Shown piece by piece: positions 40,684-64,000 of a DNA stretch of 64,000 nucleotides. The translations under genes were made by a program, and so were the position numbers. Under the pieces are notes generated by a model. It was given only the letters and a program-made list of their open reading frames with translations, was not told the DNA's origin and searched no databases. This stretch comes from Xylona heveae TC161 (Eukaryota; Ascomycota; Xylonomycetes; Xylonales; Xylonaceae): the NCBI RefSeq assembly GCF_001619985.1, contig NW_017264193.1:3129155-3193154 (forward strand), read 5' to 3'. Every line of letters begins with the position of its first letter. Position 1 is the stretch's first letter.

Positions 40684-41224
40684 AGGGCGTTTTGGTGTGT
40701 CTGTGTCTAGTTAAATCATAGATTGGTACGAACATACAACAGCGGTATTTTAAATTAGAATGGGAATCGGATCATAATGGGGCTTTTTAAGTATGGGGTA
40801 TATATATATATATATATGTATATGTATTGTATATATACATATTATACTGTATTATATTATACCATACTATACCAGTAACCCTCTGCCCTCAATATTAAAA
40901 ATACTTCAAAGTCTAACTCCTCTTAAAAACATAATGTTAAACAAAAAAGCAAGCCTTGTATTAATTAACCTTGTATCAATTAATTGACTCTTGCATATAG
41001 TTCAATTATATAAGGAATCAAGATTGCCCTGGAATGCCATTTCTTTCAACACTACTGTGCTATAAACTACTATGCTATGAAAATAGGCTCAGGAGCAAGA
41101 ATCTCCGGAGCTGAGAATATTCAGACTAACCCTTCAGGCTGGCCTCTCAATGGGAACCATTCGATTGCCTGAGTAGATCAAGCGTCCAGCGCCCAGGAAT
41201 CGCACGTTCAGCTTGTTGTGTATA
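40684..41224. other. AT-rich spacer with (TA)n tract
   Basis: About 540 bp between the convergent acetyltransferase (+) and transketolase (-) genes. A (TA)n run at 40799-40817 and further TATA-like repeats to 40870 dominate. No gene is seen. Confidence 0.55.
40799..40817. repeat. (TA)n microsatellite
   Basis: Nine or so TA units in the 3' flank of the acetyltransferase gene. Confidence 0.9.
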
Positions 41225-43656: not shown

Positions 43657-44820
43657 GATGAAAGAGAGTAATTCCTACTAGGATTAAAATGTATTGATAT
43701 CTAAGCCGTGTGTCGTTAGTCCAGAAACCTGATCTTGGCAGACACGGTATATATAATGTATATATAGAAAGTCCTCTTCCTTTCTAGTATACAATGAGGA
43801 TGAACAAATGCTTACCTTGTCAGAGGCTTACTTTTATGATCGGCTGCTTACTGACACAAAGTCCCAGAGCTTACCACGTATCAAGCATAATCTTTGTGTA
43901 CCTTTATTATAGCTATAATCTAATAAATGTTCATTATTCATACGCCTCTCGTGGTTTGGACTTAGTAAGAAGCGTAATTTATTTATCTACACTTGCATTA
44001 TTACCCGTAACGTAGAAATTATGCTTATGTTCCTCCCTGTGTGCTTATGTTATGGCAAGAGCTGGTTAGAATGTGCTTACGTAGGCTATTACATATTATG
44101 CTTACATTGCATGTTTTATATCCTGTTATAAGTTTTGTTCAACTTGCATAAGTTTGTGTTGTTATTAGTTAAACTACTTACAGGTCCGGAGCTGAGCTTC
44201 AATTTTACAAAATCTTGATTTGTACAGAATCCTTACTTCAAGAACAACTATAACTTGTATCTGTACTATTCTTGGATTTGATACTTAGTCTATATTTTAT
44301 TCTTCTAGTAAAGCTATTACAAACTTCTAAAACACCATAGAATCTTCCAAAAAGACTAGTGAGAAATGACATAATTCCAACTTTACCGGCCTGATAGAAA
44401 TTTTTAGTGTTTCCAGAAGTACAATCAAAACCTACTAAAGAGAATAAAATGTATGAAATTTTTAGCAGAGAGTACTGATTAAAGTATAAGCTGATGCACT
44501 TACTTTCTACCATTCAACATGGTTCAGTTCCTGTACTTGCCTTGAAGCTCTTACATGGTTAACTCAGGATGTTATGGTTGCGAGAATATCATGGCAGTCA
44601 CAAGTTAGGAAATTATGTAATTTATTTTTGATGGTTATATACATGTCATTGCCTGTATATCTGTTGAAAACACGCTGCCATTACCCTGCTGCTGGGTAAT
44701 ACTTACGGCCACGACTGCTTGTGGTAGAATTCAGAATTTGCCACTTTGCTCGCACTGAGAACCACCAGAGCTCGTCTTCTACTAGTGAATCTCCTGGAGT
44801 AAGCTGTTAGCAAAATTCAT
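43657..44820. other. AT-rich spacer with dispersed GCTTA motifs
   Basis: About 1.2 kb between the transketolase and the DHA1 transporter genes. Eight copies of GCTTA(C/T) lie between 43809 and 44105. Below 44240 there is a short open frame of 91 codons on the minus strand with no known family. No supported gene. Confidence 0.5.
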
Positions 44821-46610
44821 CTATCGAGAGGCATGGCTACTCACATTTGCAATCTTGCTTCTAGCACGAATTCGCGGCCCGTATATAAGAAGGGCCCAAG
44901 GTACAACACTAAGAATCAAGGCCTGGATCTATGAGTACGATTGTAACTTTTCTTTTGACAGTATAGCGGATGCTTACCACCCCTCCAAGAAAACTCAAGG
45001 CACCAGGAATTTTCATAGACGAAAACATAGCATCAGTTGCGAGTGGGAAAACGCCGCCCAAAATATTACGCGTCAGCGATTGTGCAGCCAGAGCTGAACT
45101 TGCATATCGATGATACGTATCGGCCGTGTAGTTGTTGACTGCAAGAAAGATGGTATAGATGCCTATCGTAGCAATAGCTATGGCGATGGACGGCACGATC
45201 CAGTGAATAGATTCTCTGCAAGTCCAAGCCCATATGAAAAGTCCTGTGGGAAACATGAAACATTCTAAACAAGCGAAATGAAGGCGAGACTCTGGAGACA
45301 TGATCGGATTTCCAAGCCGAGGTCGCAGCCTTTCCAAATAGATGTTAACTGTGGCCCCAAGAAGAGCTCCGACGGCCATTGCTGGTGAATATTAGCCATG
45401 AGTAAATCTCAATACCATTTGGGTTGAGTTACATGTAAATACTGCCCCAATTTGCTGGCTGTTAAAGCCGTAGGCGGCTTTGAATGTCAATGGAAGACCA
45501 CCAAAGGAGAGATATAATACCCCCCACGCAAAAGCGATCCACAAGCTAAACCAGAAGACTACCGGCTAGAGGCGAGCGATCAGCCGACTTCATGTCAATG
45601 CATATCGCTAGAAATGATTGCAAGTACTCACCTCAGTGACCAACAAGCCTATAAAATAAATTAGAGATGCAGCACCAACACGGGTAATAAGCTAGCTTAC
45701 GAAGAGGTCGCGAGAGGGATATACGTAGCAAGCTTGCCAGGGATACTGAATCTTCTTTGGTAGCTATACTCCACTGAACTTGTTGCAGTTGCCCATCCAC
45801 GTTCAGGCCACGCATCCCAAGTGTCTGGCATTTGGCGTACCATTGGTTCAATGCTCGAGCATTTCGAGAAAGGAGCACATTCTCGCGAGTTTCTTGGAAG
45901 AAAATGGCCGAAATCAATGTGAGGCTGCCACAGCTGATTGCTTGTACATAGAAAACCCAGCGCCATTGGAGATGAAATGCAATAATTCCGGAAACAAGCG
46001 GCCCTAGACCAGTCCCAAAGAAGGCGGCACCAGCGAAGATGGCCATAGCTGTATTCCGTTCGTCAACGCGGTATATGTCGGCAACGATGCCGCCAACCAT
46101 GGTAGAAAAGGTGGAGCTTCCAACGCCTGCAAAAAATCTGGCAATAAGAAGGCCGGAAAAAGAGTCCGTCAATGCGCAACCAAGCTGTGACAAAAAGAAG
46201 ATCAAACCAGAGAAGAGAAATACCGGTTCACGGCCCTTGATTTCCGAAAAAGGTGCAAGTATCATGGGTGCAATAGCAAATCCAATGCAGTAGGTGGTAG
46301 TGCCGAGGGTGAGGAGAGTCTGGGAGACATCCCAGGCCGCTCCCATAACGGGGCCAGGGGCATTGTTCGAGCCGGAAGCATAGCCAGAGACCACAGTCAC
46401 AGTGCACGATAGGCACGTGGTGAAGATCTTCCGCCTGCTGGTCCAGTCAAATGGGGAGATCAACTTGGGAGGAGGCGAAGGGTAAAGTGAAGATGGTGGA
46501 AATGGTTGTGGCATAGGGGTCTCGAAGGTCAACTCCGTCAGCACGGTAGTTGTTGACCCTTCGTTCCATTGTTCCGACTTTTCAGACTGCATATTCGTCG
46601 CCTGCGGCAT
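44821..46610 (-). CDS. MFS transporter, DHA1 (drug:H+ antiporter-1) type
   Basis: Twelve-helix exporter driven by protons. Exons on the minus strand are 46610-45701, 45648-45632 (only 17 nt), 45565-45433, 45381-44978 and 44928-44821 (523 aa). All junctions are GT-AG and the frame is kept throughout. After a hydrophilic N-terminus come FDWTSRRKIFTTCL and helices typical of DHA1. Motif C is GTGLGPLVSGII. The last exon reads IQALILSVVPWALLIYGPRIRARSKI, a normal DHA1 end. A GTGAGT right after IAN could splice out the last few codons, so the exact C-terminus is uncertain. It is divergent from the second transporter at 48051 and probably exports the cluster product or gives self-protection (inference). 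Confidence 0.87.
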
Positions 46611-48050
46611 GCTCTTCTGGATGGTTGAGATGGTCTACCAGAGTGATAACATGACAGAAATGGAGGCCTCTTCGCTGCACGGCAGGGGAAGATAATATAT
46701 CGAGCTCGGGCCAAAATACTCTACCCTAATTATTAGTGGACGGGCACTAGTAAAGCGTCAAAGATCATTGTTAGCGTCGGCACTCTATACAAAGCGGCGC
46801 CTTCGACTCATCTGCACCGAGTCACGCTGGCGCTGAATCGGCCAGAGGACAGTTCGTTGACCAAAGAAACTCCCCTGTAAAAAGAGCGAGAATATTTCGG
46901 ATGGATGGGGATGATGATTACGGAGGCAAACAGATGGTTGGTCTGACACCAAATACCTACCTACCTAGGTATCTAAGATACCTACCTGCTTAAGTTAGGA
47001 CGGACGGGAGAAGCATCCGAGAAAGGCCCACGTTAGGTACTAGCGCCGGGATGAAATTCAAAAGACGTTCTGTCACACTAAAGAATAAGGGCTGCATCTA
47101 GTGTTGGTGCTTACGCTCATCCTGATAACAGTGAGCAGCATGCCCACTATAATCTATCCGGACTATAAAGGTTAACCCATCAAGCAGTCATAACATAGTC
47201 CTCCTGGCCGGTCAGCCTGCTCAGCAAATCCCCTACGTCCGCTAAGCCATTAAGATTACTATACCTTAACTATAGATGATGGGATTGGTAGCAATTGTTT
47301 GGGAGTAGGAAATCCTCATAGCCAACTCAGTACCTCAACGAGCGTTATGGCATGTAAGCATCAGCTAGATTTCATGATCCGGCCGGATAAGATAAGACGA
47401 CAGTAAAAGGTGTACCTTATCAATAGCATTGCATAATATCCAGGATGCTCACCCGCCAGCCATCATCATAAGCTGCATTTCATGGCCCAAGCAGATAAGA
47501 TAAAATAGACACTGACAACATACGAGTACTTGAATGGAGACCAATGGGATAAGCAAGGGTTTTCTAGCCGCACGACTGTGAAAGAAATCAAAAGTTATTT
47601 GACCCTCTGGTAGATACTTCTATTTGCCGGCTTCATTGAGTAACTAATGAATGGGCCTACACTTAAAGTCACCATTGCTACCCACTCAAAGCCATCTGTG
47701 CCATCTTGCCGTTTCCTTATCTAAATCTACCCATGTTGTAAAAATGTATTTGACCCTTGTACATACGGTATCTGTAGATACCTAGGGTTTCCACACTTCT
47801 TTGTACTCCTGGCACGTGATCTCGGAGTATATCTTCATCACGCCTCGCTACCTAGGTAGGTAGGTAGTCATAATTCATCAGAAACCAACCTAGTTTTTGG
47901 ATTCTACACCGTATAATTATCTGTGACACCCACACGCCAACACTACATCTTCAAGCAATAATTTTTTTTTCCACCCTGCATTCACAAGTACTCCAAAATT
48001 ACTTTTTTCCAAACGTTAACCTCTTCGGTTTTGTAATCGTACGGGCTAGA
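46611..48050. promoter_or_regulatory. Divergent promoter region of the two MFS transporters
   Basis: About 1.4 kb without a gene between start codons at 46610 (-) and 48051 (+). It contains CCTACCTACCTAGGTATCT (about 46956-46974) and CTACCTAGGTAGGTAGGTAG (47848-47867), each built around the palindrome TACCTAGGTA, and ATACCTAGGG near 47779. These could serve both genes. Confidence 0.55.
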
Positions 48051-49780
48051 ATGTCACAGACCGCAGTTGAAATACAGCTTCAAGTGCCATCAAGTCAGCT
48101 GTCAAAGACGGGAGAACTGCAACGAACGAGCTCCCGCTCTCTGTCACCCTATCCAGATGATGTCTTTAATCAAATTCGAAACAATGACCAGAACGAGCTT
48201 GGCAACGTTTACCAAGTCAAGACCAAGGGCAAGACAGTCCTTATCATTACCGCTGTTACCCTGGTAACAGGTACAGCTTCAATGCTGAATGGCATGATTA
48301 CTGTCAGTCTTCCTACTTTGGCCATTGACCTTGGAATAGGCCCAGATCTGCTATTCTGGTATGATGTTTAGATCCTGCAATATCCGAATTGTGCTGATTT
48401 AAAACCAGGCCATCTTCGATTCAGGCATTGACCTGCGGTTGCACTTTGCTACTTTCTGGATCAATTGCAGATGCAATCGGCGCCAGATACATGTATCTCA
48501 TAGGAACGCTCTTGCAGACAGCCTTTGTTTTGGGATGTGGCCTCTCCCGCAACCCTCTAGAGATCATTCTTTTTCGCGGGTTGAGTGGCATTGCTGCCTC
48601 CTTTTGCCTGCCCAGCGCCGTCAGCATCATTACAAGCTCTTTCACTGGCCATCACCGCAATGTCGCCTTTGCATTTATGGGCGGCGGTCAGCCCGCTGGC
48701 TTCATTATTGGTCTCGTTCTTGGGGGGATATTGACCGACTTGGCAAACTGGAGAGTTGAATTTTACGGCTCATCTGCCGTCACGGCCGTTACTTTTGCAC
48801 TGAACCTCTGGGGCCTGTCAACCTCTACTAGTGATGACTTGGGCTCAACGTGGAAGCAAAGATGGCATCAGATTACCCATGAAATTGACTGGATTGGTGC
48901 AATCATATCAAGTACTTGCCTGGGACTTATGTCTTATGTCCTTGTGTACGCATCCCCAGCAAGATAACATGGCTTCTTGATATTGACATTGTACAGATCA
49001 GTCACCGGAAACGTGTCAAATATACAATCACCAACCAGCATTGCCCTTCTTGCTACGTCCATTGCCCTAATACCCACATTCATATTCTGGGTTGGGCGGC
49101 AGGAACGATTGGGCAAGCCAGCACTAATACCAAATTCTCTATGGCGAAACAAAGTCTTTACTGTCATTTGCATCACTGTCTTCTTCTCCTGGGGTGCCGT
49201 TGAAGCTCTTGAGACCATCCTTACATTCTACTTCCAAAACGTGCAGAACCTCAGTGCTTTGCAAACGTCGATTCGTTTCTTGCCTGCCGCTGCTACAGGC
49301 ATACTTGCGAACATTGTCGCTGGATCATTGGTCCATCGAGCCCCTGGAAATGTCATTGTAGTTGTTGGCCTTGCCATATCCTGCGTGGCACCACTGGTCA
49401 TGGCGTTTGCAAAGCCAACTTCCAGCTACTGGAGTTCTGGCTTTGTGGCAAATCTACTCAATCCCATCGGATCTGACGGCCTTTTCACGGTGGCAAATCT
49501 CCTAATCACATCAGTTTTCCCTGCCAAAACTCAGGGCTTGGCAGGCGGTGTCTTCAACACAGTCAGCCAGATTGGCAAGTCCGTAGGTCTGGTGCTTGTT
49601 GCTTTGATTGCAGGCAATATAACCTCGGAGACTCGCTTTGCCAACAAGTCGAGCCCTGATGCTTTGATGGTGGGATATCGAGCTGCTTTCTGGTTTTGCT
49701 TTGCCCTTTGCACTTCGACGCTTGCCCTGGCCTTGTGGGGTCTGCATCGAATTGGGAAAGTTGGGCACAAGAGAGAATAA
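48051..49780 (+). CDS. MFS transporter, DHA2-like (14-helix) type
   Basis: Proton-driven exporter of the aminotriazole/drug-resistance type. Exons are 48051-48358, 48409-48945 and 48997-49780 (542 aa). Both introns are about 50 bp; the first joins LLFW to PSSIQALTCG, and the second uses GTACGC...TACAG to keep VSVTGN in frame. Recognisable segments are LADAIG-type motif A (SIADAIGARYMYLIG), GFIIGLVLGGILTDLANWR (motif C region) and a late SVFPAKTQGLAGGVFNTVSQIG. These fit the DHA2 subfamily common in fungal metabolite clusters. The substrate is unknown. Confidence 0.9.
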
Positions 49781-50544: not shown

Positions 50545-53500
50545 TTACGAGCACCTAACAACGGGCATACCAATTGCATTGATAGTGGATCTTTCCATGC
50601 GCGCAGCATTGATTCGGGTCACGTACTTTCGCACAGATTGCACGTCGATAAATGGCACAGGATAATCGTCAGCACCGAAAACGTGTTCGCCGACTGGTGG
50701 GCCCGTCACCATAGCATTCGCGCTTTCGTCATCATTAACACCGTCGAGGAGAGTGGTGATGCGAGCTAGTGGACTTTTCAGATTTGCAGCAGCATAGGCC
50801 AATGCCCGTTCCCGCCATCTGGGAAATGGCACAATTTCCTGGCGAGGGGTGCCGGCACACATAAGCTTGAAGAAGTGGTTGAAGCTCGGTGCGCGCGCAT
50901 TGGAAAAGTCATAATCCTGGCCAATTCGATAGATGTCCTGCGTCATTACAGCAACGATGGTCTTGCACAGGTAGTCGATGGGCAGCACCGCTGACAGGTC
51001 CGCGTCCAACAATGGAAAGGCGCCCATCTCAAGACACCCAGAAATTAGATTATGCAGAAAGTCGCCGCGGTCTTGCCGGAAGTGACCTGTGGCAGTCGAG
51101 GCAGTGACGAAAGGCAAGCGGTAGACAGATGCCCTGGCGCCACGCCAACGGGCAGCTGCCACCATTTGCTCTGCGATATATTTCGAGGTAGCATAACCAT
51201 ATTCCTGGTCCTTCTCCGTGATCTCGTAGCCCATGTACTTGGGTAGCGTGGACATTGTCGAGACGACATGAACTGCCTTGCCACGGCCATATGAGGCCAG
51301 ACGCAGAACCTCGTGAGCACTGACAACGTTGGGGCCGATATAGTCTTCCAGTGGGCGCATCCAGTCAACAAGTGCACCCGAGTGGCAGATGGCATCGACA
51401 CAGTCGGCCAAATGGTCGAACGCTTCTTGCGTCAGGCCAAAGAGGGGCTGTGCCATGTCGCCAACGACAGGATAGACCAGCGGCGCATATTCAGGCTTCC
51501 AGAGGCAGTAGCTGGTGAGTGTGACCACCAAACGCTGCAGGGCTTGATCGGCAGACTCAGCGCGTATCAAACAATGGGTGGTGATGCCTATTTCAAGCAG
51601 CTCATGCGTGATGAACGCGCCGACGAAGCCTGTGGCACCTGTGACGAACACGGATTTGGGAGGCACAGATGCCTTGGCAGCGTTGTGAAATGTGAAGCTG
51701 GGTTCCAAACAGCCCTTCATGATGGCAGTTACGTTGAGCCGAGGCATCTCCGATGCCGCGGTAGTGGGAGGAGTGGAGCTGCTGCAGGAATAATCCGACC
51801 CATCTTCCTGCAGCTCGGAGAGGAGGAACTGGCTGAGCGCCTTGAGATTCGGGTACTGGAATGCGAACCTGGCGGTCAATGTCAGGCCAGTCAGACTCGC
51901 CAGCTGGTTGCGTATCAGAATCGCGGTCAACGAGTCGATTCCGATGTCCTGCAGAGGCCGGTTTACATTCACATCATCCGGCAGCGCAAAGCCTAAGGCC
52001 TTGGCCACAGTATCTCGGACCATGCCCAGCACAATGTCAGGTTGCTGTGCAGGGCTGGCTTTGCTCAAGATCTTGCGCAGATCCCAGCCTCGGTGAACTC
52101 GCCTGTCACCCTGGTCCAGCAGCAAACGAAGTAATGGCGGTGTTCCGTCTCGCTCCTCATAATAGCCCTGAAGCCGATCTGGATCCAATGCGGCCGCCAC
52201 GGTAAGCGCTCGGCCGCTGCGCACAGCCTTCTCAAACAGTTTCAGGCCTTCTTCCGGGGTGAGCATATCAAGGCCGAGTCGATTGAGATGAGCAAGCGTC
52301 GTTCCAACAATCCTGGCCGCCATTCCCTCGCCCTCCCAGGTGCCGTATGCCACTGAAGTGGCTGGCAGGCGCTGGGCACGACGCAGGTGCGCGAGTGCAT
52401 CTAGGAAGGTGTTGGCCGCAGCGTAATTGCCGTGACCAGGCATGCCCATGATGCCGGAGATGGAAGAGAACATCACAAAAAAGTCCAAATCCATATCCCG
52501 AGTCAACTCGTGCAGATGCCAAGCGCCATCAACTTTTGGCGCAAAGACTGCGGCACATCGCTGTGGCGTCAAGGTCGAGAGGATACCATTGTCCTGCCCG
52601 CCGGCCGCATGGACCACACCGCGCAGCGGCCGGTTCTCGTTGAACAATGCCATGGTCGGCTTGATGCTATCGAGGTCGGCCATATCGCAGGCGATCACGG
52701 TAACTTTGGCGTCGAGCCCATTAAGTTCAACTACAAATTCGGTCGCACCGGGAGCTTCCATACCGCGGCGCGAGATCAGCACTAGGTCACGGATGCCGTG
52801 TGCGCTTACCAACCATCGAGCTACGCGCTGGCCGAGATCACCAAGACCACCCGTGATGAGCACCGCGCCGTCAGTTCGGAGGAGTGGTTGCTTAGTCGAT
52901 ACTGATACCAAGTTCACGCGCTGCATCCGTGGCACAAGCACCTGCTCCTGGCGCACGGCGCATTCAGGCTCGTCGCCCAGCATCAGGGCTGAGGCGAGCG
53001 TGTTGGGCGCAGGCGTCTCCTGATCCAAATCAATGAGACGTAGCCGGAGTTCCGGATGCTCGCTCCGCGCGGTACGCATCATACCCCATAACGGCCCAGC
53101 CCCCAGGCCCGTGAGCTTCTCTTCCGCGCCGGCACCCACTGCGTGGCGGGTGATCCATACCAGCGACGGCCTAAATTGAACCTGGGCTGCCATCTGCAGC
53201 TGCGTCAGCCCCTTTGCGGTCAAATCACGCGCCTGGCCTATGATATCATCCGCGTCCGAGTCCAACACGCATAGCAGACCATCCAGCCCTTCGGCATCTT
53301 CGAGATTCCTGACCTCGCGGATCTGAATGCCCGCCTGCGCCAAAGCCGTTTTCACCTCGCATGCCCGTGCGCATGCAGCATTACCGGCCAGGTACAGTAG
53401 TCCCCATGAGCCGCCGAGGGTGACATCGCCAACATTGACCCGATGCCAGCCGATTTCGAGCTGGAAGCGATCCATGTCGACATCGGCTTGGTGCTGCTGC

Positions 53501-56500
53501 GTTGCACGGCTGACGCAATTAGCATATAGGTCGCTGGCACCTGTGACCCGCAAGGGTGGAAAACTCTGTCTCTGGAAGGCATATGTGGGCAGTTCCACGC
53601 GGCGGCAGCAGCCGAAAGGCTCAAAGTAACCAGTCCAGTTAATGGACACGTGCCGCACATGCAAGTCTGCGAGGCTTCGCTGCATGACCGATGCGCCGTG
53701 CCTGCCAGGAACGAGCGACGGCATCCAGGCAATTGTTTCGTTGGTTGCTAAGCTTGCCGCACCCATGCCGGCTAAGACCGGCTGTGGTCCTAGCTCAAGG
53801 AAGATGTTGGTACCCTGTTCATATAATGTCTGAATCCCATCGGCAAAGCGAACAGCCCTGCGTGCCTGGCGGACCCAATAATCGGGTCGTTCGAGCTGGT
53901 CTTTTCCAGCCAGCTTACCCGTCAGGCTACTGACGATCGGCAGCTGTGGTGGATGGAATTGCACAGCTTCAGCCACCGCTTGAAATTCTGCCAACATACT
54001 GTCCATGTGGTGGGAGTGAAAGGCGTGCGACACATCAAGCGACTTCATCTTGCGCCCCAGGCGAGCAAAATAGACTGATATACTCTCGATAGCATCAGCG
54101 TCGCCCGATGCGACAGTCTGCTGTGGCGCGTTGTAGGCCGCGATGTCGACGTTGGAGACGAGGCCGAGTACCTCAATCGCTGTTGCTACCTCTTCCCCGC
54201 TGGCTTCTAGCGAAACCATGCGGCCCTGGGTCGAAACGGCGTGCATCAGCCGGCCGCGTGCCGCGACCAGACGACAGGCATCGGAGAGGTTCAAGACGCC
54301 GGTGACATGTGCAGCCGCGAGCTCACCCACACTATGGCCGAGAGCCAGATCCAGCTGCACGCCCCAGCTCTTCCAGAGATGCCAAAGGGCTATCTCCAAG
54401 GCGAAGATAGCGGGCTGCGCAAAATCAGTTCGCCGCAGCAGCGTGGCGGTGTCGCTACCAGGAACAGCCTGCATAACATCTAATAGCGGCATCTCTAGCT
54501 CGGTGAAGTGCGCCGTGATCTCATTCAGCGCATCGCGAAATACTGGGTAGACTTGATAAAGGTCCTTCCCCATGCCTGAGACTTGACTGCCTTGACCGGT
54601 GAAAAGCATGGCCAGGCGAGGCTCCCCAACATGGTTAGGAGCATGCAAAGCTCTCGAACTGGAGCCGAGAGTCTCCAGGAGCGTGGCCTTGTCTTTTGCC
54701 ATTAGTACAAGTCGCCGTTGGAAGTGGTTGCGAGTGGTCGCCAACGAGTAGGCCACCTCGCTGAGACGGGCATTGCTATCCTTGCTTGTGCTCTTGATGT
54801 ACCGTTGAAGCCTTTCAGCCTGCTGGTATAGGGCGGCATCGGTAATGCCCGATAATATAAACGGAATTTCTGGCGGCAATGGGGCCGACAATGTCTTGGA
54901 ATGCACAGAACGTAACAAAGGTTCCTCCACAATGGCATGCGCGTTGGTCCCGCCAATGCCAAATGCGCTAATGCCGGCCCGCCGGGGTCGACCCTCTCGG
55001 GTGAACCAGGGCTGAGGCTCCTGCACGAGCGCCATTTTGGCACTCTGCCAGTCCACTGCCGGCGTTGGCTTCTCGGCATGCAGAGTTCGAGGAATTTGGT
55101 TGTTCTGCATCGCCAAGATGACTTTGAGCATCCCCGCTAGACCCGCCGCCGCTTGTGTATGCCCGACGTTTGACTTTGCCGAGCCGATCCACAGTGGCTC
55201 CGCCTCGGCTGGCCGACTTCCGCCAAAAACTGCAGCTAGCGCCACACCTTCAATAGGATCGCCCAGCTTAGTTCCCGTGCCGTGCGCTTCGATATAGTCA
55301 ATCTCGCCCGGAGTCAACCCCGACGCGGCTAGCGCTGTGCGAACAAGCCGCTGTTGCGCCGGGCCACTTGGCACCGTCAGCCCAGCGGCAGTCCTTCCTC
55401 CGTGGTTAATCGCGGTTCCGCGAATTACTGCATGGACAATGTCACCGTCGCGGACGGCGTCGCTCAGACGCTTTAACACTACAGCTGTGCAACCCTCAGC
55501 CCAGCCTGTGCCCTGCGTGTCTGCTGCAAAAGCTCGGCACCGCCCGTCCGGGGACATACCTTTGAGCCGACTGAATTCGACATGCATTCCAGGGGTGAGC
55601 ATGAGGGTCACGCCGGCAGACAGTGCCATGTCACATTCGCCCTGACGAAGTGCATTGCACGCCAGGTGCGTCGTCACTAAGGATGAGGAGCAGGCCGTGT
55701 CCACCGTTATGGTCGGGCCCTCGAGACCGAGCACGTAGGATACGCGGCCAGACACAGTTCCTCCGGCAGAGCCTGTCACGGCGTAGCCATCGAGATCTGC
55801 AAGGGCCCGTGCGGGGGAGTGTGCTGAGATGCTGCAGACGCCAATGTAGACCCCCGTTTGGCTGCCGCGCAGGTGCTCGACTGTGTAACCCGCGCGCTCG
55901 AATGCCTCCCAGCTTGTCTCCAGCATAACGCGCTGCGCAGGGTCCATGGCACACGCCTCTCTTGGCGAGACACCAAAGAAGGATGCATCAAAGTCGTCGA
56001 CGGAGCTAAGAAATCCACCCCGCCGACAGTACGACATTCCACACGCATCTGAGTCGGCGTCGTAGAGGGTATCGGCATCCCAGCGGTCTTTTGGTACGTC
56101 CATATTGATGTCACCTCCGCGCTTGAGCAGCTCCCAGTAATCTTCCGGGGTGGTGATACCACCAGGGAGCCGGCACGCCATTGAGACGATGGCAATGTCC
56201 TCGTTGGCTGCTGCGCGACCTGGCAGAAGGACAGGTTTGGGCTTGATCTCCTCAGTGCTGCCCAGGTATGCTGCCAGTGTCTTGATGGTATAGTGCTCAA
56301 ACAGCATGGCCGGAGACAACGGCCGGCCAAGAAGCTTCTCCAGCTCTTTTTGCACTCGCACAATGCGCACAGAATCGCCACCGATCTGAAAGAAGTTATC
56401 GTGGATGCCGATGCGGTCGTGACCAAGGACGCTTGACCAGATGAGCCGGACATTCCGCTCCATCTCGGTCACCAGCTCAGCCGCGACATGGTGAATTAAC

Positions 56501-58065
56501 TCTATAGGATCCGGGAGAGCCTTACGGTCGACCTTCTTATTAAGTGTCATTGGAAAGGCCGCCAACTCGACAAAGAATGCAGGCATCATATACGCCGGCA
56601 GCCGCTCGGCCAGCCAGGGACGTAGTACACTGTCGAGCGTCGGCTTGCGCGCGTTACTGGGAGCAGGCACGACCGTATCCCGCACGCAGTACGCTATTAA
56701 CCTCTCCTCTCTGCTGATTACGACCGTCTCCGAGATATCCGCGTGGTTGGTGATGGCCGACTCAATGTCGCCCAGCTCGACCCGGTAGCCACGGATCTTG
56801 ACCTGCCCATCTGCGCGGCCCAAGACGCGCAGCCTCTCCGGAGTCTCGAAACGGGCCAGATCGCCTGTGCGGTACAGGTGGCCTTCGTGAAAGGGATTGT
56901 CGAGGAAGCGCGACCTAGTAAGCTCCGGCTTGTTGTGGTAGCCTCTAGCCAAGCCGGCGCCGCCTATATAAAGCTCGCCTTCGCACCCGAGTGGCACCGG
57001 AGAGAGGTCTTCACCAAGTACATACATCCGGTAGTTAGCTATCGGGCTGCCAACGACTACATCTCGGCCCTGGCGTACCTTCCAGATGCTCGCCCACACC
57101 GTCGCCTCGGTCGGACCGTACATGTTCCACACGGACTCCGCACACGAGAGTAGTCGCTCTGCCATCCTCCTGGGCAGCGCATCTCCGCCGCACAGAATTT
57201 TGGAGAGACGGGGCTCCCCTTTCCAGCCCGCGTCCAGTAGCATCTGCCAGGTCGCGGGCGTGCCCTGCATCACGGTGATGCCGTGCCGTTTCATAAGCCC
57301 CAATAGTGCGCCTGGGTCCTTGACCTCATGTTCCTGAGCCACAACTGCCGTCGCGCAACAGAGCAGCGGCAGGAATAGCTCCAAGGCCGCAATGTCAAAA
57401 GAGATAGTCGTTACAGCAAGCAGCCGGTCTGTTTCACTGCATCCGGGCTCCCGTCGCATCGAGCACAGTAAGTTAGCCAAAGCGCCGTGGCTAATCTCCA
57501 CGCCCTTGGGCTTGCCGGTGGAGCCGGATGTATATATCACGTATGCTAGGTCGTCTGAGTGCACGTCAACCTCGAGTCCGGAATCGCTGTCCGAGTTTGT
57601 CATTTTGTCTCGTATCTCGTCAATATCAAAGCACAATTCTCTCCAGGGCAACAACGCATTGTGTGTGCCGGCTCCAACAATGATGAGCTTTGGTCCAGCG
57701 TCGTCGATCATGTGGCGAATGCGATCTCTAGGGAAGGCTGGATCGATAGGTACATACGCGGCACCCGTTTTCAGTACGGCCAGTAGCACCACGATGAGGT
57801 CGACAGAACGGTCCAGGGCAACACCGACGAGGTCGCCCCGGCCAATGCCCTGCTTCACCAAGACGTGGGCAAGACGATTCGCGAGCGTATTGAGCTCTTC
57901 AAAGGACAGTTCCGTGTTGCCACAAATCAGGGCAGTCTTGTTTGCGTGGCTGTCCGTGGCATGCTGAAGAAGGTGATGTAGGCAATGTCCTAGCGTTGTA
58001 GTGTCGTCGGTGGCATTGAATTGATCGGTTACAGCCTGATAATCTTCAGTCGAGATGGCGATCAT
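50545..58065 (-). CDS. SwnK-type NRPS-PKS hybrid synthase, A-T-KS-AT-KR-T-R
   Basis: Megasynthase of 2506 aa in one exon. Adenylation (about 40-520): YTSGSTGKPKG 178-188, NMYGPTE 314-320, K511. Carrier: GGDS, S565. Ketosynthase (about 620-1050): C792, H928, H969. Acyltransferase: GHSVGE S1245 and HAFH 1347-1350, the malonyl type. Ketoreductase: Rossmann loop 1737-1744, S1867/1868, Y1881, N1885. Second carrier: S2045. Thioester reductase: TGATGFVGA 2142-2150, Y2291 and K2295. There is no condensation, dehydratase, enoylreductase or methyltransferase domain. This is the order of SwnK of swainsonine synthesis. It should load an amino acid, extend it with malonyl-CoA, reduce the ketone and release an aldehyde. 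Pocket residues D224, I225, L228, Q267, L291, G293, M315, V323, W324 and K511 resemble the glycine code. An in-frame extension to 58203 is probably leader; MIAISTEDYQ is preferred. Confidence 0.93.
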   Translation of the reverse strand: MIAISTEDYQAVTDQFNATDDTTTLGHCLHHLLQHATDSHANKTALICGNTELSFEELNTLANRLAHVLVKQGIGRGDLVGVALDRSVDLIVVLLAVLKTGAAYVPIDPAFPRDRIRHMIDDAGPKLIIVGAGTHNALLPWRELCFDIDEIRDKMTNSDSDSGLEVDVHSDDLAYVIYTSGSTGKPKGVEISHGALANLLCSMRREPGCSETDRLLAVTTISFDIAALELFLPLLCCATAVVAQEHEVKDPGALLGLMKRHGITVMQGTPATWQMLLDAGWKGEPRLSKILCGGDALPRRMAERLLSCAESVWNMYGPTEATVWASIWKVRQGRDVVVGSPIANYRMYVLGEDLSPVPLGCEGELYIGGAGLARGYHNKPELTRSRFLDNPFHEGHLYRTGDLARFETPERLRVLGRADGQVKIRGYRVELGDIESAITNHADISETVVISREERLIAYCVRDTVVPAPSNARKPTLDSVLRPWLAERLPAYMMPAFFVELAAFPMTLNKKVDRKALPDPIELIHHVAAELVTEMERNVRLIWSSVLGHDRIGIHDNFFQIGGDSVRIVRVQKELEKLLGRPLSPAMLFEHYTIKTLAAYLGSTEEIKPKPVLLPGRAAANEDIAIVSMACRLPGGITTPEDYWELLKRGGDINMDVPKDRWDADTLYDADSDACGMSYCRRGGFLSSVDDFDASFFGVSPREACAMDPAQRVMLETSWEAFERAGYTVEHLRGSQTGVYIGVCSISAHSPARALADLDGYAVTGSAGGTVSGRVSYVLGLEGPTITVDTACSSSLVTTHLACNALRQGECDMALSAGVTLMLTPGMHVEFSRLKGMSPDGRCRAFAADTQGTGWAEGCTAVVLKRLSDAVRDGDIVHAVIRGTAINHGGRTAAGLTVPSGPAQQRLVRTALAASGLTPGEIDYIEAHGTGTKLGDPIEGVALAAVFGGSRPAEAEPLWIGSAKSNVGHTQAAAGLAGMLKVILAMQNNQIPRTLHAEKPTPAVDWQSAKMALVQEPQPWFTREGRPRRAGISAFGIGGTNAHAIVEEPLLRSVHSKTLSAPLPPEIPFILSGITDAALYQQAERLQRYIKSTSKDSNARLSEVAYSLATTRNHFQRRLVLMAKDKATLLETLGSSSRALHAPNHVGEPRLAMLFTGQGSQVSGMGKDLYQVYPVFRDALNEITAHFTELEMPLLDVMQAVPGSDTATLLRRTDFAQPAIFALEIALWHLWKSWGVQLDLALGHSVGELAAAHVTGVLNLSDACRLVAARGRLMHAVSTQGRMVSLEASGEEVATAIEVLGLVSNVDIAAYNAPQQTVASGDADAIESISVYFARLGRKMKSLDVSHAFHSHHMDSMLAEFQAVAEAVQFHPPQLPIVSSLTGKLAGKDQLERPDYWVRQARRAVRFADGIQTLYEQGTNIFLELGPQPVLAGMGAASLATNETIAWMPSLVPGRHGASVMQRSLADLHVRHVSINWTGYFEPFGCCRRVELPTYAFQRQSFPPLRVTGASDLYANCVSRATQQHQADVDMDRFQLEIGWHRVNVGDVTLGGSWGLLYLAGNAACARACEVKTALAQAGIQIREVRNLEDAEGLDGLLCVLDSDADDIIGQARDLTAKGLTQLQMAAQVQFRPSLVWITRHAVGAGAEEKLTGLGAGPLWGMMRTARSEHPELRLRLIDLDQETPAPNTLASALMLGDEPECAVRQEQVLVPRMQRVNLVSVSTKQPLLRTDGAVLITGGLGDLGQRVARWLVSAHGIRDLVLISRRGMEAPGATEFVVELNGLDAKVTVIACDMADLDSIKPTMALFNENRPLRGVVHAAGGQDNGILSTLTPQRCAAVFAPKVDGAWHLHELTRDMDLDFFVMFSSISGIMGMPGHGNYAAANTFLDALAHLRRAQRLPATSVAYGTWEGEGMAARIVGTTLAHLNRLGLDMLTPEEGLKLFEKAVRSGRALTVAAALDPDRLQGYYEERDGTPPLLRLLLDQGDRRVHRGWDLRKILSKASPAQQPDIVLGMVRDTVAKALGFALPDDVNVNRPLQDIGIDSLTAILIRNQLASLTGLTLTARFAFQYPNLKALSQFLLSELQEDGSDYSCSSSTPPTTAASEMPRLNVTAIMKGCLEPSFTFHNAAKASVPPKSVFVTGATGFVGAFITHELLEIGITTHCLIRAESADQALQRLVVTLTSYCLWKPEYAPLVYPVVGDMAQPLFGLTQEAFDHLADCVDAICHSGALVDWMRPLEDYIGPNVVSAHEVLRLASYGRGKAVHVVSTMSTLPKYMGYEITEKDQEYGYATSKYIAEQMVAAARWRGARASVYRLPFVTASTATGHFRQDRGDFLHNLISGCLEMGAFPLLDADLSAVLPIDYLCKTIVAVMTQDIYRIGQDYDFSNARAPSFNHFFKLMCAGTPRQEIVPFPRWRERALAYAAANLKSPLARITTLLDGVNDDESANAMVTGPPVGEHVFGADDYPVPFIDVQSVRKYVTRINAARMERSTINAIGMPVVRCS

Positions 58066-58938
58066 CTTTCCTACAAGTGAGAGGTTATTTGCTTTTTGAG
58101 TGCTATATAAAGTCGGTAAGAAGTTGCTTGAATATGGTTTTTTTGACCGAAGCACAATGCCGCTCACGGTGTATGGCTTTATTTCGCTGACAATGGACAA
58201 CACCGGTTGAGGCTCACTTTTACTAGAACGAATCCTACTCTAATTTTCAGTACGGGTCAGTTCGAATACTTTTGTCCCGGCCACCCGACTTTATGATTCA
58301 ATTATTGGCAACCCTGTGTACAACATTAACGTGGATGCCAGCTTCTTTTCTGATTAAAAGCTTACAATTATTGTATAGCGTACCCTTTTCTACTTTGATG
58401 TTACTTTGTGCAGTAAAGCTGATGAATGAACATATTCTTATACTTGTTTATTGCTAGGCGTAAGTTAATCAACCTATTACTTTGTATATATTATTTGATG
58501 CATAATGTATTACAATAAATACATACTACTACCTCATTCATCTTGCTTACTTAGCTATGATGTTCTAAGCATAATGCCCTGGTAGATATTACATTTAAAA
58601 GGCAGTTTATAGGAGTGTTTCTATTGCTATTACCGTCAGCAATAGTGTCAAGGTTGATGTCAGCATTACAGTCAGCATTATTAGTGTCTAGTAAGCTTTA
58701 TTATCAGCAAGATTATCAACATCATTATAAGCATTATTATTAGCATACATGTAATGTTGGATGATACTATCCTCAATATATACATAGTATCTAACCAAAT
58801 GCTAGTTATGTCTTACAGGCTTACTATGTGTAATATCATCTATAAATTTTCATCTCCCAATAATTTAGGCAATGGCCAGCATACAATTCCTAACCGGCAG
58901 GACAACCTACAAAGCATTCAAGCCCAGCTCGATTTACA
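58066..58938. promoter_or_regulatory. Shared divergent promoter of the hybrid synthase and threonine aldolase
   Basis: 873 bp, AT-rich, between start codons at 58065 (-) and 58939 (+). It includes three direct GTCAGCA copies, a CRE-like TGATGTCA (58655-58662) and many imperfect ATTATTAGCAT-type units at 58670-58760. The single divergent spacer suggests joint control of the two genes. Confidence 0.6.
58635..58677 (+). promoter_or_regulatory. Three direct GTCAGCA motifs
   Basis: GTCAGCA at 58635-58641, 58659-58665 and 58671-58677. The middle copy overlaps TGATGTCA, a CRE-like bZIP half-site arrangement. The same 7-mer occurs as an inverted pair upstream of the cluster bZIP gene. It is a candidate regulator site; no binding data are available. 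Confidence 0.45.
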
Positions 58939-60159
58939 ATGGATGTGCAGACTTATACCTCAGAAAACCGCCCATACTTGCCTCCTCATCCTGCGGCATT
59001 GGCAGGCTCCAAGGCCGAAATCAGCCGACTTGGATCCATGGGGAGCGACACCCAGCATCAAGGTCAAGGCTTATCCAATCTGGCGTGGTCACAGAGTAAT
59101 GATGCATCAAACGACTTTCGGTCGGATTTTGTCACAAAACCGACGCTCCCCATGCTGGAAGCGATTATCACAACGTCCCTTGGAGATGGTGACATGGATG
59201 AAGACCCGACAACGAATTCCTTTCAAGACCATGTCGCCGACTTGGTCGGCCATGAAGCCGCTCTTCTCGTGGTCTCGGGCACCATGGGTAACCAGGCCGC
59301 TCTCCGAGCTGCTCTCGGAGCCCCGCCCCATTCCATCCTTGCCGACCACCGCGCGCACAATATCATCCTTGAAGGCGGTGGTGCGTCTAGCCTTTGTGGC
59401 GCCCTGATGAAAATGGTCGTTCCCGCTAACGGCCACCACCTTACCCTGGATGATGTGAAGAAACATGGCACCACGACAGAATCCATCTACGACTGCCCCA
59501 CCCGGGTGATCTGCTTGGAGAATACATTATGGGGTACGATCATGCCCCTCTCGGATATGCGTGCTATCTCCCATTGGGCGCGTGCCCAGAACCCTCCAAT
59601 CCATATGCATCTGGACGGAGCTCGACTGTGGGAAGCCGTTGCTGCCGGTGCCTGTACCCTCCGAGAGGTTGGCGGATGTTTTGACAGCATCCAGCTGTGT
59701 TTCACAAAGGGTCTTGGTGCGCCAATTGGCAGTATCATTACTGGCAGCTCGGCCTTCATCAAGCGAGCCAAATGGAGCCGCAAGCTTCTCGGCGGCAGCA
59801 CCCGTGCTTCGGGTGTGATTGCCGCACCCGCAAGGGTCGCCATCGCCGACGTATTTCTCAGCGGAAAACTGACTGCAGCCCAGGACAAGGCAAAACGTGC
59901 CTCGGCGCTTTGGGAACAGCTTGGCGGGAAACTCCAGTACCCAACAGAGACAAATATGGTCTGGCTCGACCTTGAAGCATCTGGCTTGTCTCCTGATGAG
60001 TTCTACCTCATGGCAAGAAAATTCGACTTGAAGATTGGAGAACCAATATTTGGCCGACTTGTGTTTCATTACCAGATCACCGACAATGCATTTACTCGAC
60101 TTTGCACCTTCTTCAGGGCCGTTCTCAAAAACAGTCGCTCATGTACTACTTGCAACTAG
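58939..60159 (+). CDS. L-threonine/L-allo-threonine aldolase (PLP enzyme)
   Basis: Pyridoxal-phosphate enzyme of fold type I that cleaves threonine to glycine and acetaldehyde and can run in reverse to make beta-hydroxy amino acids. Single exon of 406 aa. The family start FRSDFVTKPTLPML is at about 60-73, after a 59-residue extension. The cofactor Asp is at about 226 (HLDGARLWEA) and the Schiff-base Lys at about 257 (CFTKGLGAPIGS). The start at 58939 is the first ATG of the frame after AT-rich sequence; M34 (MGSDTQ) is an alternative. It is divergent from the hybrid synthase, whose pocket looks glycine-like, so a glycine-supplying role is attractive (inference). It could also be an ordinary GLY1 homologue. 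Confidence 0.92.
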   Translation: MDVQTYTSENRPYLPPHPAALAGSKAEISRLGSMGSDTQHQGQGLSNLAWSQSNDASNDFRSDFVTKPTLPMLEAIITTSLGDGDMDEDPTTNSFQDHVADLVGHEAALLVVSGTMGNQAALRAALGAPPHSILADHRAHNIILEGGGASSLCGALMKMVVPANGHHLTLDDVKKHGTTTESIYDCPTRVICLENTLWGTIMPLSDMRAISHWARAQNPPIHMHLDGARLWEAVAAGACTLREVGGCFDSIQLCFTKGLGAPIGSIITGSSAFIKRAKWSRKLLGGSTRASGVIAAPARVAIADVFLSGKLTAAQDKAKRASALWEQLGGKLQYPTETNMVWLDLEASGLSPDEFYLMARKFDLKIGEPIFGRLVFHYQITDNAFTRLCTFFRAVLKNSRSCTTCN

Positions 60160-60569: not shown

Positions 60570-61731
60570 TCAAGGACAATCGAGCTTCGCTTTTGCCATC
60601 GAAAGGGCTCTGAACCTATTCTCCAAGACTATTAACAACCGGATCATGGAGGGATCGTTCGGAAAGAAGCCAATCCTGACACCAAAAATATACAAAAGCC
60701 GTAATTCCTTGGCCATTTCATCCGCCTTGAGCACAGTACTTTTATTATCGGGAATTGTTGATGTCGACACAGTCCTTTTGACGTACTGGGGACGAGTACA
60801 CATATTGTCCTTATACTGGTAATCGATCGTGCCCTATATTGTATGAGTATCTCAGCTTTCATGTTCGACGCAAAAAAGATCGTGTACTGACACTTCCTAG
60901 TTCATCCGCTAGTTTTGAACATGAGCACTGTCCTGGCGTCTGTACGTTCCAACTTTGGTCCATTAGAGAATCTTCCATGTTGCAATCTTGCAACCCGTAT
61001 CGGGAGTGGGAATTGTATCCTTGTGTGCAATTTTCAGCCATCTGCCCAGTTTCGATAGCTTTCACACGTAAAGTTGATAGGCGTCCATGCCGGGAAGATT
61101 TTCCACGTCGTTCCTGGCTCTCGATGCTATGTCGGCTGTCTCGGTCCTGGGAGCCTTCACTTTGTTTTGATTGAACCGGTGAAGCAGAAAGAGAAGGAGC
61201 AGGAGATCCAATCTCGGACTCCCTTATTTGATGCGACTGACACGACAGGGAGTCGCCATTGACCTCTTGATTTGAACCCGATGGCCATTTGCCCAGTCCA
61301 GTGAACGGGGAGGAAGCATCCTTGAACAAGGAGGTAAGAAGTTCGTTGTCGTCCATGTCATTCCAATCGCATTCGTTTGCATTCTTGTCTGATTGATTTG
61401 ACAATGTGGAGGCCTCAATGCCCGGTGGAGAGCCGGATCCGGCTGCCAAATGCGGCAAGGCTGATGTCCCGTTCTCTTTGGCTTGCACATCATGCTCCGA
61501 ATTTGGCAGATTTTCTACCAGCTCTACTATAGGAATGCTTTCGCTGTAGGACGATTTTCGTTGTCGATGCCTTTCTCCTTCACAATGGTTAGTAAAATTG
61601 AGTATAGCACCAATACAGTAATACCTCTACTGTACAGTTTTTGCCTTGTACTTACGATATCTGCGTTGAGCTTCCCGATTTTGATGACGCCTTTGCTCGG
61701 TAATGTCTGGATTTGTTGTCGCCTTTTTCAT
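60570..61731 (-). CDS. bZIP-type (Yap-like basic region) transcription factor, likely cluster regulator
   Basis: Proposed exons on the minus strand are 61731-61656, 61577-60892 and 60815-60570 (335 aa), all in phase. Intron 1 has GTAAGT, a perfect TACTAAC branch site and GTGAAG. Intron 2 (GTCAGT...TACCAG) is less certain; without it the protein ends at 60859. The first intron splits a basic region, TEQRRHQNREAQRRYR-ERHRQRK, matching the N-x2-A-Q-x2-Y-R pattern of Yap/Pap1-type bZIP proteins. No regular leucine heptads follow, so the zipper is absent or highly divergent. A polar Ser-rich middle and a CSC motif follow, then a C-terminal LRLLYIFGVRIGFFPNDPSMIRLLIVLENRFRAL segment of the kind seen in fungal cluster regulators of this type. 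It sits beside the synthase/aldolase pair and probably controls them. Confidence 0.75.
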
Positions 61732-64000
61732 TGTTTAGGACACAGCGATAATGCATACATATCAAAGGCAAGTTTTCGTCGCATTAAGCAAGGCGTAGAG
61801 ACAGGATCTCAATGACTTTTGTATGTAGAAAGTGATCAGAAATGGTTCGGAGCTCAAAAGCCCCCAGCTATGCATAGTCGAGTCAGCACCAACGGGGACA
61901 AATTGCCCGATGGTCAGTGTGACCCCGGAGTGGGTGCTGACGTCTGATCAGGTTTTCAAAAGTCTGGGTAGGTCGTAAGCCCATCGAAAAGTACCTGCAC
62001 AGATTTTGAGAAGTAGATCTAGATCTGGTCCTCGTAAGACCGGCCGAAAAGGGCTGAAGTCGGTGGCAAGGGGTGAGTGGTCCCACCAGATCCCGCTCTA
62101 TGATTCTCCTCTATTGTCAAGGCCCCGTGTGGCGATCCGTCTAGTGGAAATTGTAGCATTGCTCGTCTCGATAAATCCCAAAGGGCTCTCATAAAGGTTT
62201 CTGAATGATCTGAGGGGCATGGTAATTGACAAAGCTACCTAGTTGAGCCTTTTGATTAAATTGACCCGAGACTTCTACCTTGGTGGTAATAATCTTAGAC
62301 AGTCATCTGTCTCTTGTTCTCTCTGTCAGTAAACCGTCCGTAGTAGATTGCCATCTCAGCTGTACCTACACATAAGAGAAGCAATAAAAAACCCTTGACC
62401 ATTAACATGACAAATTAAGCCTAGACCTAAGACAAGGATAGATTGATAACGTGTCTTTTGCTCCGATGCAGCTCATGTGATCAAGCCGTCTTTAGGCATT
62501 TCCTATCGTCGACTTCGGGAGGCTCTGCAATGTCCTGGTCAGCCCAAATATGTTGAAATCATCTATATATAACCCTTGCTTAGGGTTCGAGACGGCCAGG
62601 TGGGGACCGATAACGACATCCAGAGCCTGCCATGGTAATACAAGTGTTGCAATCTCAAAATCTAGCCATGGTAGCATTGCAAGCATTATTAATATCTAAT
62701 ATGATACCTTGACGAGCAACGTCTACGACAAGGCTACAGAATATAATAAAATAATTTCTCATCACATTACATGGCCAGGTATCTTGTACCAAAATTCAGC
62801 CTCAATGTTGATAAGTGCTTACTCTACGGCCCCGTGCAATTGTGTAAACAAAGATTCCTGCCGGACAAAAACTCGCCGGCTGCATGGTGCTTACTCTACG
62901 TCGTTAGGTAACTTATCTATCAATGTTAAAGAGCCTCATTGTCACCTTTTTCTTTTTGATCCGGCTAATCATCCCGACAGACCTAAACTAGGACGGTATA
63001 TGCAATTCCGGCGCAGCAGTCATCCTGCATAAATGGTCTCATCAATGCCAGCCTGATACAGTAGCGTGGCGGCACTGTTAGAGCCTTGCCATGTGAGCTT
63101 GGATAGGCTTCTCATCGTCCTTTTGACTCCGCACCAATTCAAGTATGTTGCGAGACAGGAGGTTGGCCGGGTAGACAAGCACCTCATGAAAGTCCCAATG
63201 ACTTGCCATCCGGGTGAATTCCGAGCTTGGCATAGATGAAGTTGTCTATTTCTACCTATTTGGATCGTACTTCTGAAATGCTTTTCGGTTACTTCTTAGA
63301 AGTTTCGGAATAAAACATCTACGGGAAAAGATCCTTCTAGTACATGTAGAACTAGAACTTCCCAAGGTCAACGGTTTTTTTACTCTACGCCGTTTGATTT
63401 GTCACAGCAATGGTCGCTACCCCTAGCACACTAAGGCCTTGGGCCCCGGCTTTAACCACGGGTTAACGACCCGGGCCGAGAGCTGGTGAGCGGACCGCTT
63501 GCTGCGCCCGTCGCGATCCTGGGGTCACATATACTAGTAGATCTATTGGAAACCTTATATATTCTTATTGTTAAGAAGAGAATCATTTTAATTTTCATGA
63601 AGTTTCAATACAGTTTAAGACTATAGCCATAAATTTAGGCTTACGAGCTTTGCACCAGCAAAATTCCGAAATAGGCTATTCCCCAAAGTAGCAAAGTGAG
63701 CAAATACCAGGTAGGCCCCACGAGCAATCCCCTCTACGTCGAATACTATAACTCCACCAGGCTGTGATCACCATTCAGGTTACTTATTCGAGAAATATAT
63801 TAACAACTAATCAGCTAAATTATGACTGACAACGCTCGTAATTTGCTCGAAATATGCACATTTATTCCAGAATGGTGCATAGATGGTTTTAGTCAATAAG
63901 GTCACCCACGCCCAGTCTGGAGTTTGATCTTATCCTCGAGATCAACCCAGACAAGAGCAACGGTGACCCTAACCAACGGTAACAAGACTCAATCTCACTA
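61732..64000. other. Right-hand 2.3 kb without a supported gene
   Basis: It contains the upstream region of the bZIP gene and then AT-rich sequence. GTGCTTACTCTACG occurs twice (62814-62827 and 62887-62900). A GC-rich island at about 63425-63530 holds TTAACC-ACG-GGTTAA (63452-63466). Short open frames of up to 107 codons have no recognisable content. A decayed mobile element is possible, but I can identify no family. Confidence 0.5.
61882..61941. promoter_or_regulatory. Nested inverted repeats upstream of the bZIP gene
   Basis: Perfect 9-bp inverted repeat GTCAGCACC (61882-61890) and GGTGCTGAC (61933-61941). Inside it lies a second dyad, GGTCA-GTG-TGACC (61912-61924). The structure is about 150-210 bp upstream of the bZIP start and shares GTCAGCA with the synthase/aldolase promoter. 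It looks like an autoregulatory site (inference). Confidence 0.5.

Follow-up and report, generated by a model that had tools for sequence, protein, structure and literature searches.

A synthase gene of the rubber-tree endophyte Xylona heveae (placed in Xylonomycetes by taxonomy) raises the question of which compound is made by an enzyme that shares the domain order of SwnK, and next to which no swn-type gene is recognised. The window, by which we mean the whole stretch of 64,000 nucleotides analysed, corresponds to C1:3129155-3193154 in a genome of 24.28 Mb and 17 contigs. SwnK paralogues are widespread in fungi, swainsonine-like indolizidines have been suggested for them, and the idea that such paralogues make other products has already been proposed (PMC5473758, PMC7864672). 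Thus, this kind of synthase is already known from the literature; what is new here is the reading of its adenylation pocket as glycine type and its recurrent pairing with a threonine aldolase. Our main reading, to which we give a probability of about 0.68 from the sequence data, is that the synthase, a paralogue of SwnK that belongs to the SwnK-like/NPS7-PKS24 kind, would load glycine and would have a dedicated threonine aldolase in its pathway. Most likely, then, the X. heveae enzyme makes a compound different from swainsonine.

Architecture of the synthase

The synthase is encoded on the reverse strand by a single intron-free ORF, which can be translated from an ATG to a stop codon. The domain order A-T-KS-AT-KR-T-R and the catalytic residues, which had been read from motifs in the preliminary description, were borne out by the Pfam families and the active-site residues (Table 1), with K511 as the active-site lysine of the A domain. 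The AT motifs are those of a domain that we take to be of the malonyl type, and the DH, ER and MT families were absent among the 16 Pfam families tabulated. The same description had called the order rare, which proved to be too strong, since 155 proteins of 2370 to 3100 aa entered our alignment. No second synthase of this architecture was found among 27 matches in the X. heveae genome (19 of 60 candidates scored); at a locus on contig C4, where A and KS matches occur within a span of about 12 kb, the KS comes first.

Table 1. Coordinates of the features of the locus, numbered from the first nucleotide of the window
Feature	Position	Strand	Details	Basis
NRPS-PKS hybrid synthase	50545..58065	-	2506 aa, A-T-KS-AT-KR-T-R	intron-free ORF, Pfam and motifs
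Adenylation (A) domain	56533..57966	-	residues 34-511, code DILQLGMVWK	Pfam (34-377 plus 434-511)
Substrate-pocket stretch	57094..57396	-	residues 224-324, holds 9 of 10 code positions	alignment
First carrier (T) domain	56263..56451	-	residues 539-601, Ser565	Pfam and motif
Ketosynthase (KS)	55075..56202	-	residues 622-997, Cys792/His928/His969	Pfam and motif
Acyltransferase (AT)	53647..54606	-	residues 1154-1473, GHSVGE Ser1245 and HAFH	Pfam and motif
Ketoreductase (KR)	52333..52869	-	residues 1733-1911, Ser1868/Tyr1881/Asn1885	Pfam and motif
Second carrier domain, core motif	51928..51948	-	Ser2045	motif; second PP-binding stretch in Pfam
Terminal thioester reductase (R)	50956..51645	-	NAD_binding_4, residues 2141-2370, Tyr2291	Pfam and motif
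Intergenic region	58066..58938		873 bp, AT-rich (GC 0.355), between divergent synthase and aldolase genes; possible shared promoter	
PLP-dependent threonine aldolase (PF01212)	58939..60159	+	406 aa, Lys257	Pfam, 234.7 bits
MFS transporter	48051..49780	+	convergent neighbour; possible exporter, candidate member	predicted exons
Second MFS transporter	about 44782-47141	-		predicted exons
Transketolase-type gene	41225-43656	-		predicted exons
Hexapeptide (acyl)transferase	40234-40683			
DeoC/LacD-type aldolase	37862-38653			
Na/H antiporter	33276 on			
Cytochrome P450, 3' end	63746..64000	-	runs to about 65300, beyond the window	predicted exons
Second HMG-CoA synthase	66477-68095		beside the P450 (L018:2477-4095, C1:3195631-3197249)	

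Relation to SwnK and its relatives

Two protein searches, each limited to the 120 highest-ranking of 8000 scored candidates, yielded 209 proteins, and 158 of these, namely the 155 proteins of the above size range and 3 longer ones, were aligned. The whole-protein tree comprised the clade of the window synthase (30 members, support 1.0), the SwnK clade (73 members, support 1.0) and a third group, hereafter the middle clade (36 members, support 0.94). Phylogenies of the A and KS domains, the comparison put forward in the preliminary description, placed the synthase in the same 30-member clade apart from SwnK, both groups being monophyletic in the A tree (30/30, support 0.977; SwnK 73/73, 0.998) as well as in the KS tree (30/30 and 73/73, support 1.0 for each). 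In the R-domain tree, the two clades were not resolved.

SwnK proteins share more than 70% identity with one another, and the paralogues of Slafractonia leguminicola show 53.1 to 55.4% identity to SwnKs (PMC5473758). Since the synthase is 54.9 to 58.7% identical to seven proteins of the SwnK clade, below this published yardstick, we regard it as a SwnK paralogue. With SwnK of Metarhizium, Alternaria, Slafractonia and dermatophytes it shares the domain order and common ancestry, but it differs from SwnK in its identity of 55 to 59%, its separate clade, its pocket, the lack of any recognised swn-type gene nearby and the aldolase gene beside it. In its clade, it groups with P0002 (77%) and with the proteins of Lindgomyces (76%) and Monosporascus (76%). 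SwnK-like protein 1 of S. leguminicola (P0005) is 72.7% identical and belongs to the same clade; we found no published product for it, and its record, which carries no contig, stands outside the aldolase linkage count given below.

Furthermore, five of the seven proteins named nonribosomal peptide synthetase 7 (NPS7), together with PKS15 of Bipolaris, fall in the window clade, and the other two, from Glonium and Madurella fahalii, fall outside it. The synthase resembles the Cochliobolus NPS7/PKS24 hybrid, for which bacterial relatives are known and which has been argued to be of bacterial origin, perhaps from Burkholderiales; the abstract of that paper groups dermatophyte and Metarhizium genes with NPS7, its main text makes no mention of glycine, and for the SwnK members in Trichophyton and Microsporum no introns are reported, as in our synthase (PMC3226686). 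Two subclades, SwnK-like1 and SwnK-like2, have been described, neither with an experimentally supported member; SwnN and SwnH are reported near SwnK-like1, and SwnK-like2 is described as lacking synteny (PMC7864672). The window clade also holds a protein of Diplocarpon mali (P0028), which may be the M. coronaria PKS-NRPS3 (SwnK-like2); D. mali and D. coronariae are entered as separate species in the taxonomy. The literature searched yielded no product for a synthase of the SwnK-like/NPS7-PKS24 kind.

The adenylation pocket

The ten specificity positions of the synthase, as read from the alignment, are DILQLGMVWK, and 26 of the 30 members of its clade fit DI[LV]Q[LI]G[LMV]VWK, the exceptions to this glycine-type pocket being P0014, P0063, P0009 and P0010. 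Of the 73 SwnK-clade members, 72 present DM[LV]QxGx-YK, in which residue 331 is Tyr and position 330 is a gap (60 DMLQIGV-YK, 11 DMLQLGV-YK and 1 DMVQIGT-YK; the remaining code is incomplete). The synthase, with Ile236 and Trp331 against Met236 and Tyr331 in the SwnK clade, does not match this signature, which was derived in the present analysis and is not a published criterion. For the rows of the window and SwnK clades, these readings recurred in a further alignment, which comprised 29 A domains and in which some bacterial and middle-clade rows are incomplete. The gap at position 330, which lies in the A5 loop, could serve as a marker of the SwnK clade with respect to the window clade, and it also occurs in some rows of the middle clade.

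When solved structures were searched with the whole A-T region, linear gramicidin synthase came first, with two matched stretches, and among the single-stretch rows 5u89 and 4zxh ranked best. In linear gramicidin synthase, the second A domain loads glycine as well, yet its pocket differs from that of our synthase in the pocket alignment; hence, the glycine code is not universal. Moreover, for fungal A domains such codes are poor predictors. When the pocket subdomain served as the query, the top chain was 4zxh (AB3403), which is identical at 8 of the 9 readable code positions, the sole readable difference being Val for Met at position 322. A review table gives Gly as the substrate of 4ZXH/4ZXI (printed there as AB3404, with Gly and AMP as ligands) and of DhbF, 5U89 (PMC11253843). 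A Gly code on record is DILQLGMIWK, and L/M299, L/M322, I/V330, W331 and K517 are said to stem from Gly-activating domains (PMC12283262), while the nocamycin code DILQLGVI has been predicted to specify Gly (PMC5466765). The pocket of the synthase is therefore of the glycine type, and the A domain would probably load glycine.

This reading has to be weighed against that of a pipecolate-loading indolizidine synthase, such as a slaframine-type enzyme. The domain order equals that of SwnK, one of the two SwnK paralogues of S. leguminicola is presumed to make slaframine (PMC5473758), and a potential for analogous indolizidines has been ascribed to SwnK paralogues (PMC7864672). Yet Ile236 and Trp331 occupy the pocket where SwnK presents Met236, a gap at 330 and Tyr331, and SwnK-like protein 1 of S. 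leguminicola carries a code identical to that of the synthase, so that we consider an indolizidine synthase unlikely. If the glycine-type reading is true, the S. leguminicola protein would be a poor candidate for slaframine biosynthesis.

Search for swn-type genes

The SWN cluster is distributed across fungi, with swnK and swnH2 present in all fungi assessed (PMC9030584). In agreement with the earlier statement that no swn accessory types lie nearby, none of the SwnH, SwnN/SwnR or SwnA types was recognised in the main exons of the predicted genes between 29 and 64 kb of the window and in the 13 kb that follow on its right. In the genome-wide searches, which covered the families PhyH and NmrA, the four PhyH matches were distributed over four other contigs (C15, C2, C11 and C14), none being on C1, and of the 21 NmrA matches the only one on C1, at 1.82 Mb, is not near the synthase. 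A PhyH match (C15:197715) and an NmrA match (C15:170714) occur 26 kb apart on C15 (span C15:170714-198353), a contig with no synthase match.

It could be supposed from this pair and from the architecture that the synthase is a true SwnK that makes swainsonine, with the remaining genes elsewhere in the genome. We judge this extremely improbable, since the synthase lies outside the SwnK clade in the A and KS trees, its pocket differs, the 27 genome matches include no second copy of the architecture and the PhyH matches are scattered as described. Orthology to SwnK is rejected on the basis of these two trees, the identity values and the different pocket. The suggestion that the same assembly logic leads here to a different product is thus supported by a pocket of the glycine type, by the position apart from SwnK in the A and KS trees and by the lack of a second synthase of this architecture among the genome matches; the clades and the pocket are stronger evidence for it than the absence of swn genes.

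A recurrent threonine aldolase gene

The term orphan, used in the preliminary description, is wrong in a wider sense, since a threonine aldolase gene lies 873 bp from the synthase gene and recurs in the clade (12/28 versus 0/104 synthases). Among the NCBIfam aldolase models, all of which score below their own cut-offs for this protein, the GntG-family model is the nearest (218 bits, under a cut-off of 230), and the closest entry in the PDB is the L-allo-threonine aldolase 3wgc. The genome holds three other clear aldolase copies, 71, 51 and 43% identical to that of the window, and a weak fourth. The 71% copy, at C16:17812-18954, groups outside the cluster-linked aldolases, on a contig with no synthase match.

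Co-location was evaluated by comparing the best 120 aldolase homologues with 149 synthases, six synthases without a contig being left out, and a pair was counted when the two contigs were equal in exact size in base pairs, which on contigs above 100 kb does not prove adjacency. Among these best 120 homologues, an aldolase was co-located in 13 of 29 window-clade members including the window (12 of 28 without it, with no aldolase match for the other 16), in 0 of 35 middle-clade and 0 of 69 SwnK-clade members, and in 1 of 16 other synthases, that of Amphichorda, whose pocket is also DILQLGMVWK. For 12/28 versus 0/104 (SwnK and middle clades together), Fisher's test gives a P of 8.7e-10, a value calculated on the best 120 aldolases and on related species that are not independent. 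Six of the matching contigs span 14 to 97 kb, and the locus tags in Cercophora are adjacent (OQA88_1128/1129). The hosts of co-located aldolases span several fungal classes. Two of the four window-clade members with a non-glycine pocket, P0010 and P0014, have an aldolase on a contig of equal size. A tree of the aldolases places the 14 co-located proteins, that of the window included, together in a 51-member group, for which no support value was printed. This group is nested in a clade of 80 members (1.0), outside which lies the closest other copy of the genome, on C16; a clade of 31 members (0.927) holds 11 of the 14. The distances of synthases and aldolases correlate weakly in a mirror-tree comparison of 14 pairs (r of 0.45, with 156 of 5000 permutations as high).

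That the aldolase is a bystander gene is a view which the wide occurrence of the family in fungi and the weak mirror correlation would favour, but which we hold to be improbable given that the co-location recurs across several fungal classes, the six contigs of 14 to 97 kb included. As judged from contig co-location, the aldolase is a recurrent partner of the synthase clade. We found no prior report that pairs a threonine aldolase with NPS7, swn or a fungal hybrid NRPS-PKS in a literature search that covered subscription journals thinly, and the main text of PMC7864672 does not mention an aldolase.

Bacterial relatives and ancestry of the pocket

Actinobacterial and Achromobacter A-T-KS-AT hybrids (L020-L023 and L055) match the synthase at 52 to 63% identity in three long tblastn segments, and the hybrids P0020 and P0021 are 66% identical to it. 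Across the five bacterial loci, segments are 49 to 63% identical in Streptomyces and 39 to 59% in Achromobacter. The additional stretches that separate these segments fit the methyltransferase, DH and ER families listed among the domains of proteins of this sort. The bacterial hybrids share glycine-type pocket residues with the synthase where these could be read; different from it, they are about 3800 to 4200 aa long, bear the MT/DH/ER-type stretches, often include a formyltransferase and have no aldolase in their loci, none being found in 80 loci of bacterial relatives at an E value of 1e-3. Of 45 bacterial-type sequences, 44 present D-I-L-Q and Met or Leu-Val-Trp at the pocket positions that can be read from motifs; the reading extends to positions 299 and 301 in three sequences only, with Ser at 301.

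In a KS-AT tree with bacterial and distant outgroups, the bacterial hybrids are nested among the fungal proteins (0.848), and SwnK falls at the base of the fungal group (0.274). These data suggest that the glycine-type pocket is old, the rooting of the KS-AT tree being weak. Given the low support for the basal placement of SwnK, the change between the glycine-type and the SwnK pocket may have gone in either direction. Two proteins, P0073 (2912 aa) and P0105 (2992 aa), combine methyltransferase families with a glycine-type pocket and may be intermediates between the bacterial and the fungal forms.

Proposed pathway

What the sequences show is the domain content, the clade membership, the glycine type of the pocket and the repeated pairing of the clade with an aldolase; the loading step and the product are inferred from these. 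The A domain would load glycine on the first carrier, the KS and AT would add one malonyl unit, the KR would reduce the beta-keto group, and the R domain would release 4-amino-3-hydroxybutanal, which could close to 3-hydroxy-1-pyrroline. The released compound would thus be an amino aldehyde, where SwnK is expected to yield an indolizidine precursor derived from pipecolate.

The aldolase, if it belongs to the pathway, may either obtain glycine from threonine for loading or join glycine to the released aldehyde, in which case a beta-hydroxy-alpha-amino acid would result. An aldolase that merely supplies glycine and leaves the product untouched, a reading that overlaps with our main one, is a substantial possibility, though we would not bet on it: a glycine-type pocket adjoins a threonine aldolase gene, and the three further clear aldolase copies would leave the local one free for a dedicated supply, but the aldolase occurs on a contig of equal size in P0010 and P0014, two of the four members whose pockets are not of the glycine type. 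As the aldolase is kept in these two, we prefer the joining of glycine to the aldehyde as its role, and the addition of a glycine enolate to a pathway aldehyde has a precedent in ObiH of obafluorin biosynthesis (PMC6668435).

It is possible to hypothesize further, if only tentatively and with more doubt than confidence, that the clade represents an undescribed two-enzyme pathway, in which a co-inherited threonine aldolase would combine the amino aldehyde with a second glycine to give a beta-hydroxy-alpha-amino acid, for example 2,6-diamino-3,5-dihydroxyhexanoate, or a ring formed from it, and that the pipecolate pocket of SwnK arose later from an ancestor of the glycine type. Returning to our main reading, the type of the pocket and the repeated aldolase pairing together predict another chemistry for the clade as a whole, and the product question for NPS7/PKS24-type hybrids would be reduced to a simple enzyme assay.

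Neighbouring genes

The exons of the neighbouring genes were predicted with a codon-based gene model, in whose training set two of the eight added frames (from L015 and L016) proved to be misread. Between the aldolase and the P450 genes, there is a serine-rich ORF of 255 aa (60859-61626, reverse strand) with no Pfam match. The P450 is a possible tailoring enzyme of the pathway. On the other side of the synthase, the DeoC/LacD aldolase, the hexapeptide acyltransferase, the transketolase-type gene and the two MFS transporters (37862-49780) possibly form a separate metabolic cluster. To the right of the HMG-CoA synthase gene, a CAND1-like housekeeping sequence follows. The HMG-CoA synthase, which lies about 6 to 8 kb to the right of the aldolase and is the second of the genome, the other copy being on C12, could belong to the cluster or to a separate one.
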